64,000 bases of DNA from Aureimonas frigidaquae (lineage in GTDB: Bacteria; Pseudomonadota; Alphaproteobacteria; Rhizobiales; Rhizobiaceae). Below the pieces are notes generated by a model, which saw nothing but the letters and a program-made list of their open reading frames with translations, was not told the DNA's origin and did no database searches. The translations under genes were made by a program, and so were the position numbers. Positions within the stretch are counted from its first letter, which is position 1. Each line of letters starts with the position of its first letter. Below, in pieces: positions 10,646-51,264 of this stretch. The stretch spans positions 496,001-560,000 of the forward strand of contig NZ_BBWR01000002.1 in NCBI RefSeq assembly GCF_001463905.1, given 5' to 3'.

Positions 10646-12532
10646 ATGCTTCAGATCAGCGATATTTCGGCGCGCGTCGCCGGCCGGCTCCTCATCGACC
10701 ATGCCAGCCTGACCATCCCGACCGGGACAAAGGCCGGCCTGGTGGGGCGGAACGGCACGGGCAAGTCCACCCTCTTCCGCATCATCACGGGTGACCTCGC
10801 GGCCGAGACGGGAGAGGTTTCCGTCCCGCGCAACACCCGAATCGGACAGGTGGCGCAGGAAGCGCCCGGCACGCAGGACAGCCTGATCGAGGTTGTCCTG
10901 AAGGCCGATCTGGAGCGGGTCGCGCTGCTGGCGGAGGCCGAGACGGCGAGCGATCCGCACCGGATCGCCGAAATCCACACGCGGCTGGCCGATATCGACA
11001 GCCATTCGGCCGAGGCGCGGGCGGCCGCCATCCTGGACGGGCTCGGCTTCGACGCCGCCGCACAGGCCCGGCCGGTGGCCTCCTATTCGGGCGGCTGGCG
11101 CATGCGGGTGGCCCTGGCGGCGGTACTTTTCGCCCGGCCCGATCTCCTGCTCCTGGACGAGCCGACCAACTATCTGGACCTCGAAGGCACGCTCTGGCTG
11201 GAAAACTTCGTATCGCGCTACCCGCATACGGTCCTCATCATCAGCCATGACCGCGATGTGTTGAACAACGCGGTCGATTCCATCATCCATCTGGACCAGA
11301 AGAAGCTGAACTTCTATCGCGGCTCCTACGATTCCTTCGAGCGTCAGCGGGCCGAGAAGCTCGAACTGATGCAGAAGCAGATCGTCAAGCAGCAGGCCGA
11401 GCGCAAGCATATGGAAGCCTTCGTGGAGCGCTTCCGCGCCAAGGCGAGCAAGGCGCGCCAGGCCCAGAGCCGCCTGAAGGCGCTGGAGCGCATGCAGCCG
11501 CTCGCCGCCATTCTGGAAGAGCATGTGACGCCCTTCGTCTTCGAGGCGCCGGAAAAGGTCCTCGCATCGCCCATCATCCGAATGGAAGGCGTCGCCGTCG
11601 GCTATGAGAGCCGGTCCATCCTGCGCGGCCTGAACCTGCGCATCGACCATGACGACCGCATCGCGCTGCTCGGCGCCAACGGCAATGGCAAGTCCACCTT
11701 CGCCAAGCTCCTGGCCGAGCGGCTGCAGCCCCAGGCGGGGGAAATCACCCGCGCCCCTGGGCTCAAGGTCGCCTTCTTCGCGCAGCATCAGATCGACGAT
11801 CTGCGGCCCGACGAGACGGCCGTCCAGCATGTGCGGCGCCACATGCCGCAGGCGCCGGAGGCCAAGGTCCGGGCCCGCGTGGCACGCATGGGGCTCAGCA
11901 CCGAAAAGATGGATACGGTCGCCGACAAGCTGTCGGGCGGGGAAAAGGCGCGGCTCCTGATGGGCCTCGCCACGCTCGACGCGCCGAACCTTCTGATCCT
12001 GGACGAACCCACCAACCACCTGGACATCGAAGCCCGCGAAAGCCTCGTGCGCGCGCTCAACGACTTTCCCGGCGCGGTCATCCTGATCAGCCATGACCGG
12101 CATATGGTCGAGGCAACCATGGACCGTTTGTGGCTGGTCGGCGACGGCACCGTCGCGCGCTATGACGGCGATCTTGAGGATTACAAGAAGCTGATCTTGT
12201 CCGGGCGGCGGAGCGGGTCGGGCACCGAAGCGGTCGAGGTGGCGGAACCCGTCCAGTCACGGGCGGATCAACGGCGCAGCGCCGCGGAAAAGCGCGAAGC
12301 CCTGAAGCCCCTGCGCAAGAAGATCTCGGCTCTCGAAATCCAGATGACCCGCCTGCAAAAGACGATCACGGAGCTGGACGCCCAGCTTGCCGACCCCGCA
12401 CTCTACACGCGGGAGGCGTCCAAGGCGGCCGACCTCGGCAAGCAGAAGGCGCATGCCGCGCGCACGCTGGAAAAGGCCGAGGAAGAATGGCTCGCGCTCA
12501 CCGAAGAGCACGAGGCGGCGATGGCGGACTGA
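10646..12532 (+). CDS. ABC-F family ATPase (tandem ATP-binding cassettes, ribosome-associated type)
   Basis: A soluble protein with two ABC domains and no membrane segment, as in the ABC-F family (Uup, EttA, YheS) that acts on the ribosome. The first cassette has GRNGTGKST, signature YSGGWRMR and LLLLDEPTNYLDLEG. The linker is long and charged (about 235-300). The second cassette has GANGNGKST, LSGGEKARL and LLILDEPTNHLDIEA. A C-terminal coiled coil (about 545-625) favours the Uup/YheS side. I prefer the ATG at 10646; an in-frame GTG at 10631 would add five residues. It is divergent from the GST gene. Confidence 0.92.
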   Translation: MLQISDISARVAGRLLIDHASLTIPTGTKAGLVGRNGTGKSTLFRIITGDLAAETGEVSVPRNTRIGQVAQEAPGTQDSLIEVVLKADLERVALLAEAETASDPHRIAEIHTRLADIDSHSAEARAAAILDGLGFDAAAQARPVASYSGGWRMRVALAAVLFARPDLLLLDEPTNYLDLEGTLWLENFVSRYPHTVLIISHDRDVLNNAVDSIIHLDQKKLNFYRGSYDSFERQRAEKLELMQKQIVKQQAERKHMEAFVERFRAKASKARQAQSRLKALERMQPLAAILEEHVTPFVFEAPEKVLASPIIRMEGVAVGYESRSILRGLNLRIDHDDRIALLGANGNGKSTFAKLLAERLQPQAGEITRAPGLKVAFFAQHQIDDLRPDETAVQHVRRHMPQAPEAKVRARVARMGLSTEKMDTVADKLSGGEKARLLMGLATLDAPNLLILDEPTNHLDIEARESLVRALNDFPGAVILISHDRHMVEATMDRLWLVGDGTVARYDGDLEDYKKLILSGRRSGSGTEAVEVAEPVQSRADQRRSAAEKREALKPLRKKISALEIQMTRLQKTITELDAQLADPALYTREASKAADLGKQKAHAARTLEKAEEEWLALTEEHEAAMAD

Positions 12533-47449: not shown

Positions 47450-47581
47450 TACCCGCGGTCTATTGCCACCTTACAAAAAGGGATAAGGCCCCATTATCGG
47501 GCTTGGCTTTTGCCGTCGGTGCGACATTCTCAACATATCGTCGTCCATCATGCGGCGCGGGACCAATGGGGATTATGCCGA

Positions 47582-48991
47582 ATGCCATTCGATGAGATGC
47601 TGGTGGATAATGGCACGGTGCGCGCCCCTTACACGCGCTTCCAACGATGGTTCGAGCAGCAGGACCCGCAGGCGCTGGCCAGCAAGGCCGGCGAGGCCGA
47701 GGGCTTCTTTCGGCGCACGGGGATCACCTTCAACGTCTATGGCCAGCAGGAAGCCGCCGAACGGCTGATCCCGTTCGACCTCGTGCCGCGGATCATATCG
47801 GGCGCCGAATGGGCGCCGCTCGCGGAAGGCATCGAGCAGCGCGTGAACGCGCTCAACGCCTTCCTGCACGATATCTACCACGATCAGGAGGTCGTCCGGG
47901 CCGGGGTTGTCCCCGCCAGCCTGATCGAGCGCAATGCCGCCTACCTGCCGCAGATGGAGGGCTTCAGCCCGCCGGGTGGGGTCTACACGCACATTATCGG
48001 CGTCGATCTGGTGCGGACGGGCGAAGGCCAGTTCTACGTCCTGGAAGACAATGCCCGCACACCGTCGGGCGTGTCCTACATGATCGAGAACCGCGAAACG
48101 ATGATGCAGATGTTTCCCGAGCTCTTCGCGCAGAACCGCGTGCGCCCGGTCGAAAACTACCCGCGCCATCTGCGCCACTCCTTGTCCCGCGTGGCGCCCA
48201 GCGCCTGCGGCGGCACGCCGCGCATCGCCGTCCTGACGCCGGGCATCCACAATTCCGCCTATTACGAACATGCCTTCCTGGCCGATCAGATGGGCGTGGA
48301 ACTGGTCGAGGGATCGGACCTCAAGAAGATCGACGGCCGCATCGCCATGCGCACGACGCAGGGCTATCTGCCGATCGACGTCCTGTACCGCCGGGTCGAC
48401 GACGCCTTCCTGGACCCGCTCGCCTTCAATCCCGATTCGCTGCTGGGCGTGCCCGGCATCATGGAGGTGTACCGCAACGGCGGAATCACCATCGCCAACG
48501 CGCCGGGGACCGGCATCGCCGACGACAAGGCCATCTACTCCTACATGCCCGAGATCGTCCGCTTCTATACGGGCCGCGATGCCATACTGGAGAACGTGCC
48601 GACGCATCGGTGCGCCGAACCCGATACGCTGGCCTATGTCCTGGAAAATCTGGCCGAACTGGTGGTCAAGGAAGTTCACGGTTCCGGCGGCTACGGCATG
48701 CTCGTCGGACCGGCCGCCAGCCGCGAAGAGCGCGAGACCTTCGCCGCCAAGCTGCGCGCCAATCCGCACAATTACATCGCACAGCCGACCCTGGCGCTGT
48801 CCACCGTGCCCATCCTGGCCGAAGCCGGGTTGGCGCCCCGTCATGTGGACCTGCGGCCCTTCGTGCTCGTCAGCGACAAGGTGAAGATCATACCCGGCGG
48901 GCTCACCCGCGTGGCCTTGAAGGAAGGCTCCCTGGTCGTCAATTCGAGCCAGGGCGGCGGCACCAAGGACACCTGGGTTCTGGAGGACTGA
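47582..48991 (+). CDS. Circularly permuted ATP-grasp protein (type 2)
   Basis: A 469-residue member of the circularly permuted ATP-grasp family predicted to be a peptide or amino-acid ligase (Iyer and colleagues' ATP-grasp/alpha-E systems). Landmarks are VYGQQEAAERLIPFDLVPR, the acidic metal site FYVLEDNARTPSGVSYM (about 155-171), PDAGH-like LTPGIHNSAYYEHAFLA, and the nucleotide loop VVKEVHGSGGYGMLVGP near residue 365. The ATG at 47582 is the conserved start. A weak promoter (TTGCCG 47510, CATATC 47534) may lie upstream. The alpha-E gene starts 1 nt after its stop. Confidence 0.88.
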   Translation: MPFDEMLVDNGTVRAPYTRFQRWFEQQDPQALASKAGEAEGFFRRTGITFNVYGQQEAAERLIPFDLVPRIISGAEWAPLAEGIEQRVNALNAFLHDIYHDQEVVRAGVVPASLIERNAAYLPQMEGFSPPGGVYTHIIGVDLVRTGEGQFYVLEDNARTPSGVSYMIENRETMMQMFPELFAQNRVRPVENYPRHLRHSLSRVAPSACGGTPRIAVLTPGIHNSAYYEHAFLADQMGVELVEGSDLKKIDGRIAMRTTQGYLPIDVLYRRVDDAFLDPLAFNPDSLLGVPGIMEVYRNGGITIANAPGTGIADDKAIYSYMPEIVRFYTGRDAILENVPTHRCAEPDTLAYVLENLAELVVKEVHGSGGYGMLVGPAASREERETFAAKLRANPHNYIAQPTLALSTVPILAEAGLAPRHVDLRPFVLVSDKVKIIPGGLTRVALKEGSLVVNSSQGGGTKDTWVLED

Positions 48992-48992
48992 C

Positions 48993-49934
48993 ATGCCGCT
49001 TTTGGGACGTACTGCAAACGGGCTGTTCTGGATGCAGCGCTATATCGAGCGCGCCGAGAACACGGCCCGGCTGATGGATGCCGGGCTGCGCCTTTCCCTG
49101 ACCAACCTGTCCAGCGAGGCGGAGGAATGGAACTCCATTCTGGTCACGACCGGCGTTCTCGACGATTACAAGGCCCAGCACACGGAGTTTGACGCCGCCA
49201 CGATCACCGAGTTCATGCTGCGTGACCCGGCCAATCCGTCGAGCATCCTGAACTCCATGGCCATTGCCCGGACCAACGGGCGCATGGTCCGCACCGCCCT
49301 CACGCGGGAGACGTGGGAAGCGATCAACGAAAGCTGGATGCTGCTGCGCGACAAGCTTTCGCGCCCGGTGGACGACCTGCCGGCGCTCCTGGAACTGGTC
49401 AAGCAGCGCTGCGCCCTGATCCGCGGTTCCTTCTACGGAACGATGCTGCGCAACGAGATCTTCGATTTCTGCAATCTCGGGACTTTCCTGGAGCGGGCGG
49501 ACAATACGGCCCGCATCATGGACGTGAAATACTGGGTGCTGCTGCCGCAGCATTCCTCGGTCGGATCCTCGCTCGACAATTACCAGTGGGGCTCGATCCT
49601 GCGCTCCGTATCGGCCCTGCGCTCCTATGCCTGGGAATACGACGCGGAGTTCAAGGCCGTGGACATCATGGATTTCCTGATCCTGAACCGCCGCATGCCG
49701 CGATCGCTCGCCTATTGCTACCGGCTGATCGAGGAGAGCCTGGGCTATCTCAGCCGCGTCCACGACGGCGAGGTGGAAGCCCATGCGACCGCACGCCGGA
49801 TCGCCCAGCGCCTGGAAGAAGCCAGTGTGACGGATATCATCGATGGCGGGCTGCACGAGTTCCTCGAAGCCTTTATCGTCGACAACAACCGCCTGTCGGA
49901 CGAAATTGCCCGCGCATATCGTTTTCACAGTTGA
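48993..49934 (+). CDS. Alpha-E domain protein
   Basis: An all-helical 313-residue protein of the alpha-E family, always found with circularly permuted ATP-grasp proteins and probably working with them. The signature WMQRYIERAENTARLMDAG is at residues 14-32, and ERADNTARIMDVKYW repeats the motif near residue 168, so the protein looks like two related halves. GGAGG lies inside the end of the ATP-grasp gene. It is 114 nt from the Anbu gene. Confidence 0.9.
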   Translation: MPLLGRTANGLFWMQRYIERAENTARLMDAGLRLSLTNLSSEAEEWNSILVTTGVLDDYKAQHTEFDAATITEFMLRDPANPSSILNSMAIARTNGRMVRTALTRETWEAINESWMLLRDKLSRPVDDLPALLELVKQRCALIRGSFYGTMLRNEIFDFCNLGTFLERADNTARIMDVKYWVLLPQHSSVGSSLDNYQWGSILRSVSALRSYAWEYDAEFKAVDIMDFLILNRRMPRSLAYCYRLIEESLGYLSRVHDGEVEAHATARRIAQRLEEASVTDIIDGGLHEFLEAFIVDNNRLSDEIARAYRFHS

Positions 49935-50048
49935 AGCTCTGTGGAGACACCCTGTGGATTGCTGGAATGAGCGGCCCGCCTGGCCTATAGATCATGAGGA
50001 TGGCCTGCCGGGGCCATGCGTCCGCTTTTCCTGCGCAGGTTCAAGACC

Positions 50049-50789
50049 ATGACCTATTGCGTCGGCCTTCTTCTGAACAAGGGCCTCGTCTTCATGTCCG
50101 ACACCCGCACCAATGCGGGGGTGGACAACATTTCCACCGTGACCAAGATGAAAGTCTGGTCGCGTCCGGGCGACCGGTTCCTCTGCCTCCTGTCGGCCGG
50201 CAACCTGGCCACCACGCAAGCGACGATCTCGCTCCTGGAAGAGCGGGGGCTGCACCCGTCCCAGCGCAACCCTTCGCTCTTCGAGCAGCCGTCCATGTTC
50301 CAGACGGCGATGCTGGTGGGCGAGACTCTGAAGGAAGTCATTTCCTACACGACGCCGACGGGGCAGCAGGCCGACAGCCGCTTTGCCGGCACGTTCCTGC
50401 TCGGCGGTCAGATCAAGGGCGGTAAGCCGCGCCTGTTCATGATCTACCCGGAGGGGAACTTCATCGAGGCCGGAGAGGACAACCCCTTCTTCCAGATCGG
50501 TGAGCACAAATACGGCCGTCCGATCATCGTGCGGACCTACGATCCCAACATGTCGGTCGAGAATGCGGTCAAGCTGATGCTCGTGTCTTTCGATTCGACC
50601 ATAAAGTCCAACCTGTCCGTCGGAATGCCCATCGATCTGCAGACCTATCGCACCGATGCGCTCGAGGCGGGGTATCACCAGCGTTTCGACGAGCGGGACC
50701 CCTACTACCAGACCATTGCGAACGGATGGTCCTTCGCGCTCAAGGATGCGTTCGACAGGCTCCCCCCCTTCGTTCCGAAGGACGCTTAG
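50049..50789 (+). CDS. Anbu-type proteasome-like peptidase
   Basis: A bacterial proteasome-beta homologue of the Anbu group, 246 aa. With the start at 50049 the protein begins Met-Thr, so removal of Met exposes the Thr1 nucleophile (TYCVGLLL). Asp17 in MSDTRTNAG and Lys32 in TVTKMKVW complete the expected Thr-Asp-Lys site. FAGTFLLGGQIKGGKPRLFMIYPEGNF is the family core. An in-frame ATG at 50016 would add 11 residues in front of the Thr. It is convergent with, and overlaps by 4 bases, a DUF971 gene. Confidence 0.9.
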   Translation: MTYCVGLLLNKGLVFMSDTRTNAGVDNISTVTKMKVWSRPGDRFLCLLSAGNLATTQATISLLEERGLHPSQRNPSLFEQPSMFQTAMLVGETLKEVISYTTPTGQQADSRFAGTFLLGGQIKGGKPRLFMIYPEGNFIEAGEDNPFFQIGEHKYGRPIIVRTYDPNMSVENAVKLMLVSFDSTIKSNLSVGMPIDLQTYRTDALEAGYHQRFDERDPYYQTIANGWSFALKDAFDRLPPFVPKDA

Positions 50790-51145
50790 CGAGACAGGCC
50801 CTTGGCCGCCAGCGCCTCCAGATACGCATTCCAGACCGCCTCCTGCCGGCCGGCCAGGTCGTGGAAGTAGGACCAGGTGAAGAGGCCCGTATCGTGCCCG
50901 TCGTCGAAGACGATGCGGATTGCGTAATGGCCCACGGGCAGGACATCGCGAATCGTCACGTCGCGCTTGCCGGCGACGGTGACGCGCTGCTCGGGTGAAT
51001 GGCCCTGCACCTCCGCCGAGGGCGAACTCACCCGTAGAAGTTCGGCGGCAAATGTATTTTCCCGGCCCTCGGCGTCGATCAGCTTCAGGCTCCTGCGGTC
51101 CCGCGATACCACGATCCCCTTGGGCGGCGGTACGGTCTGGCTCAT
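50786..51145 (-). CDS. DUF971 / gamma-butyrobetaine hydroxylase N-terminal-like protein
   Basis: A 119-residue protein with the DUF971 fold: [37 protein letters not shown] and [11 protein letters not shown] are its conserved blocks. The domain also forms the zinc-binding N-terminus of gamma-butyrobetaine hydroxylase, and stand-alone forms are linked to iron-sulfur or molybdenum cofactor genes. It is divergent from moaA, 119 bases away, which fits that link. Start at the ATG at 51145. Confidence 0.85.
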
Positions 51146-51264
51146 CACTCTTTTCCCTTCCGGGCGGTCGCGCACGGACCCGCACCTTGACCCCGGCCTA
51201 CCGCGCTTCCAAATTCAGGACAAGTTCGCGACCTTTGGGAGCCTGCGTGGCGCATTTTCCGGCA

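Follow-up and report, generated by a model that had tools for sequence, protein, structure and literature searches.

A transglutaminase-less form of the Anbu operon in the Aureimonas clade and its association with a second, DUF2126-containing system

Here we analysed a locus within a window of 64,000 nucleotides of Aureimonas frigidaquae (by window we mean the whole stretch of DNA analysed), whose genes and features are the following:

47582-48991, + strand: ATP-grasp ligase of the circularly permuted type, 469 aa when read from the ATG at 47582 (Pfam CP_ATPgrasp_2, 549 bits; PDB 3N6X, E = 1e-199)
48993-49934, + strand: Alpha-E protein, 313 aa, all-helical (Pfam Alpha-E, 304 bits; AlphaFold mean pLDDT 91.7)
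49935-50048, + strand: 114-nt gap at the site of the transglutaminase (TG) of relatives, with no TG remnant seen
50049-50789, + strand: Anbu, 246 aa, a proteasome-like Ntn hydrolase that retains Thr1, Asp17 and Lys32 (PDB chains; alignment A3)
50786-51175, - strand: neighbour with a GBBH-like N-terminal domain (Pfam PF06155) that faces Anbu

The three genes of the forward strand are intact, and the Pfam and PDB matches bear out the set that had been proposed from the sequence, with the same coordinates and with gaps of 1 nt between ATP-grasp and alpha-E and of 114 nt between alpha-E and Anbu. The reading frame of the ATP-grasp gene opens at 47510 and translation probably begins at the ATG at 47582, while the ATG at 50049 is the likely start of Anbu because the solved Anbu chains begin with the threonine that follows the methionine here. 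The Anbu protein matches the PDB Anbu chains 5LOY, 5NYJ, 5NYF, 5NYW and 5LOX (all E <= 2e-62), begins with MTYCVG and has D18 and K33 (counting the methionine) invariant in alignment A3; Thr1, Asp17 and Lys32/33 are presented as the candidate catalytic residues of Anbu in the pertinent passages of PMC6376114. For alpha-E, searches that included a sequence search yielded no clear relative with a known structure. The GBBH-like gene overlaps the stop of Anbu by 4 nt, and it is syntenic in the clade described below, being found in 25 of its 29 loci as against 1 of 132 other loci.

Anbu is described as occurring mainly in a four-gene operon made of ATP-grasp, alpha-E, transglutaminase and Anbu genes (Iyer et al. 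2009, as cited in PMC5666114 and PMC6376114). The window locus has three of these families in the same order, on the same strand and with the same tight spacing, and its Anbu and ATP-grasp proteins are close to solved members, but it has no TG, the ortholog of which is also missing from the rest of the genome. The original prediction that this is an Anbu system agrees with the family matches of the ATP-grasp, the adjacent alpha-E and the downstream Anbu, and its claim that the TG is absent between alpha-E and Anbu, in a gap too short to hold it, stood as well: tblastn of TGs against the 114-nt gap gave only chance matches (lowest E 0.057 among the matches listed), and the operon TG of relatives, with about 265 aa, is too large for the gap.

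Anbu was present in all 21 genomes of the genus, our own included, and the nearest Anbu genes among named contigs were those of Aureimonas, followed by those of Fulvimarina. Examination of 29 genomes of the clade (the 21 of the genus and one from each of eight sister genera) showed the TG to be missing at the loci of all 29; in the other genera of the family with fetched loci, the TG lies between alpha-E and Anbu. The absence is hence not peculiar to this locus but fixed across the clade, and because the layout is identical in all 20 other loci fetched from the genus it is not an accident of assembly. The 28 TG-less members whose triad is complete group as a single clade in the operon tree (support 1.0). 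In the named set (n = 80) the TG lies between alpha-E and Anbu in 73 cases, six are TG-less (five Aureimonas and one Fulvimarina) and one, Pelagimonas varians (L213), is arranged differently. A model built from 17 operon TGs (A2) reached 371-403 bits in each of nine control genomes that had not contributed to it, whereas its best score over the 29 TG-less genomes was 156 bits, which indicates that the TG ortholog is gone rather than relocated. Between genomes of the genus the median dN/dS was 0.11 in ATP-grasp, 0.19 in alpha-E and 0.16 in Anbu (20 of the 21 genomes, one Anbu being cut by a contig end; usable dS in 172-173 of 190 pairs). The three remaining genes are thus under purifying selection, pointing to a fixed variant and not to decay. 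The window locus represents an Anbu operon without TG, a form that is fixed throughout the Aureimonas clade, and no description of such an operon was found among the matches listed from the open-licence literature. Linkage has loosened in some sister genera, with other genes between alpha-E and Anbu in G302 and G297 and the two genes on different contigs in G287.

The genome (4.1 Mb in 30 contigs) contains two alpha-E genes, that of the window locus and one fused to an ATP-grasp on contig C10, and three matches to PF01841, two of them on C10 and the third an orphan TG on contig C5. C10 (L007) encodes, one after another, a TG-DUF2126 protein of 1151 aa, the fused ATP-grasp/alpha-E protein of 736 aa and a small TG. 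We call second system such a set of large TG-DUF2126, fused ATP-grasp/alpha-E and small TG, to which the two C10 matches belong; it was found on C10 and not at the window locus. The two systems have the ATP-grasp, alpha-E and TG domains in common, but the second differs in its fusion of ATP-grasp and alpha-E, in its additional DUF2126 putative amidoligase domain and in having no Anbu beside the C10 set. The earlier suggestion that the missing part may be elsewhere holds to the extent that TG-like proteins do exist in this genome, but none of them is the missing ortholog, since the best score with the A2 model was 121 bits against the 371-403 bits of the nine controls.

The original prediction was to be refuted by a TG adjoining another alpha-E copy, together with evidence that the window locus is a decayed duplicate. 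The first of these was found on C10, and ATP-grasp and alpha-E do occur in both sets; the second was not, because the two sets are distant paralogs (alpha-E 20% identity) and the three window genes are conserved and under purifying selection (dN/dS 0.11-0.19), so that a decaying duplicate of the second system is scarcely credible. It is also very improbable that the C5 orphan TG is the relocated partner of the operon or its replacement. In G186 a TG of the C5 type stands immediately before the ATP-grasp gene (45% identity), yet the C5 protein scores 67 bits with the Anbu-operon TG model and its distribution is patchy: a close copy (77%) occurs in only one other of the 21 genus members, a broken fragment with two stops, 73% identical to part of it, in a third (G245, contig C1, 698256-698480), and the next matches fall to 38-39%.

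The second system accompanies the loss of the operon TG well beyond this genome. DUF2126 was present in 29 of 29 clade genomes and in 9 of 10 other TG-less genomes, and a second alpha-E in 28 of the 29. To look at the association across operons, 143 complete triads were placed on a tree of the joined operon proteins, which is not a species tree. A total of 161 loci had been placed. Outside the 143 are L036, whose contig stops short of ATP-grasp, and 17 loci with an incomplete triad, 11 with DUF2126 and 6 lacking it; the 17 include second Anbu copies, G287 and the loci of G030, G126 and G196. L272 was moved by hand from the TG-less to the TG-bearing class on account of a TG in an inverted set beside Anbu. 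Among the 88 Anbu places of the class search, 12 of the 73 at >= 39% identity and the 15 weakest lay outside the fetched set. The operon TG was absent in 39 of the 143 operons (37 with DUF2126), present without its catalytic cysteine in seven (all seven with DUF2126) and intact in 97 (31 with DUF2126), so that the absent and Cys-less classes together account for 46 operons, 44 of them with DUF2126. These form 14 loss clades on the operon tree, some of which may not be independent, and 12 of the 14 have DUF2126. The two TG-less genomes without it are G220, a 1.3-Mb genome in which the set is arranged differently, and G040, which does have a fused ATP-grasp/alpha-E with a small TG. G124, scored as TG-absent, carries a TG of the operon type in a further ATP-grasp/alpha-E set that has no Anbu (L276), apart from its ATP-grasp/alpha-E/Anbu set without TG (L057).

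The Cys-less TGs belong to G068, G027, G373, G386, G340, G356 and G351, with the histidine changed too in two of them, and they still occupy their place as open frames (L052, L054, L122, L123, L126, L261 and L264); from their sequences they are likely pseudoenzymes. In a group of six genomes, the five with DUF2126 have a Cys-less TG and the one without it, G347, keeps the Cys-His-Asp residues. These five genomes were counted as four events, which would be fewer if the placement of G347 (support 0.65-0.92) were wrong.

The strength of this dependence varied with the definition of the trait. For presence or absence of the TG the association was significant with all tips but lost significance once the clade was represented by a single tip (p 0.055 to 0.18 in two prunings). 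When the trait was the loss of a functional TG, with the clade again as one tip, the likelihood ratio was 17.06 and the loss rate without DUF2126 was estimated as zero, this significance depending on the seven Cys-less TGs and on a trait redefined after they had been seen. None of 180 null simulations in which DUF2126 evolved independently (0/60 and 0/120) reached 17.06, the largest value being 14.0, and the dependence held when, in a smaller set, further groups were each collapsed to one tip (p 0.0008). Among intact TGs, tip branches relative to the operon were slightly longer with DUF2126 (n = 31) than without it (n = 64 of the 66, two having scored too low; p 0.018), as is expected under relaxed constraint.

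Physical links between the two systems were also found. A joint cluster occurs in G030, G126 and G196, which belong to one genus and therefore count as one event:

L277, L278 and L279 (6300-15900), one strand: second system together with a TG-less ATP-grasp/alpha-E pair, Anbu standing alone elsewhere (L039, L046, L049)

The row consists of the large TG (DUF2126), the fused ATP-grasp/alpha-E, the small TG, a separate ATP-grasp and a separate alpha-E, so that the small TG of the second system directly precedes the TG-less pair. In G016 a separate ATP-grasp/alpha-E pair and the DUF2126 gene face each other; G066 has its DUF2126 gene beside, and divergent from, a TG-less triad, and in G118 a second, lone Anbu is divergent from a TG-DUF2126 gene (L044, 3309-7771). 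A comparable grouping has been described in Burkholderia cenocepacia, where ATP-grasp (DUF404/407), alpha-E (DUF403), TG-like and large TG-like genes (I35_5080-83) form one NtrC-dependent cluster; it likewise brings these families together, but it encodes two TG-like proteins, one small and one large, and the passages of PMC5491218 that describe it name no Anbu and do not identify the large protein as DUF2126.

Another possible reading is redundancy of whole pathways, in which the second system makes the same product, the entire Anbu system is relaxed and the TG is simply the first part to go. The domains shared by the two systems, the separation of Anbu from alpha-E in three of nine clade genera and the lone Anbu genes of other DUF2126 genomes speak in its favour. 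We nonetheless consider it quite improbable, given that Anbu and alpha-E are each retained in 29 of 29 clade genomes, that ATP-grasp stands beside alpha-E in all 28 loci holding both, and that purifying selection acts on all three genes within the genus.

Placing these results into a model requires considering what each component may do. According to the passages of PMC6376114 on these proteins, the Anbu proteins tested had no peptidase activity on standard substrates, the operon proteins formed no stable complexes with each other, and the ATP-grasp protein released phosphate from ATP. In the model that we propose the ATP-grasp ligase would join amino-acid or peptide units, alpha-E may assist it as a scaffold or carrier, and Anbu would trim or hydrolyse the product of the ligase. 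The TG domains of the second system, acting on the product of the Anbu system, might perform the step of the operon TG in trans, in which case the operon TG alone would become dispensable and be lost. This supply in trans fits the data because a single component was lost, and one that has other copies in these genomes that look catalytically intact. The G-x-C motif was retained in all 36 TG frames of the 33 clade loci fetched, which cover part of the 90 PF01841 matches and include orphan TGs; in 8 of the 29 clade genomes PF01841 gives only two matches. Against it count the 31 DUF2126 genomes that keep an intact TG and the exceptions G220 and G040. On balance we favour, with modest confidence, the view that the step of the operon TG was taken over in trans by the TGs of the second system.

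The main competing explanation is that no TG step is needed, the ATP-grasp, alpha-E and Anbu being sufficient with Anbu as the hydrolase, and that the link with DUF2126 is indirect, for example through shared ecology or nitrogen regulation. The retained catalytic residues of Anbu, the origin of TG-less triads on several occasions and the same two exceptions agree with it, but it predicts neither DUF2126 in 12 of the 14 loss clades, nor the intact TG of G347 among Cys-less relatives, nor the joint cluster of G030, G126 and G196. We regard it as unlikely, though worth keeping in mind; the earlier idea that Anbu alone hydrolyses is possible and yet accounts for less of the comparative pattern. 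Taking supply in trans further, we tentatively propose, at somewhat less than even confidence, that the TGs of the second system accept the ligase product of the Anbu system, two peptide-making systems thereby sharing one TG step and the operon TG having become expendable in up to a dozen lineages, some having deleted it and others keeping it as a Cys-less pseudoenzyme.

If this were true, both systems would yield an amide-linked product that is identical or very similar, and exchangeable TGs would mean that their substrates are alike. A dependence on the DUF2126 system would be a testable link between two uncharacterised systems, while a lineage that runs the Anbu system without a TG of its own offers a natural minimal set and the Cys-less operon TGs may serve as natural inactive mutants.

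The Anbu operon is reported to be induced under nitrogen limitation (PMC5666114, PMC6376114). Sites resembling those of sigma-54 (<= 1 mismatch) were found upstream of ATP-grasp in none of 28 loci of the TG-less clade and in 14 of 103 TG-bearing loci, about 0.6 being expected from shuffles. Additional TGs were also observed: in L012 a TG of the C5 type (11001-11867) lies directly upstream of ATP-grasp, besides the usual TG, and in Litoreibacter albidus (L206) an extra TG occupies the same place.
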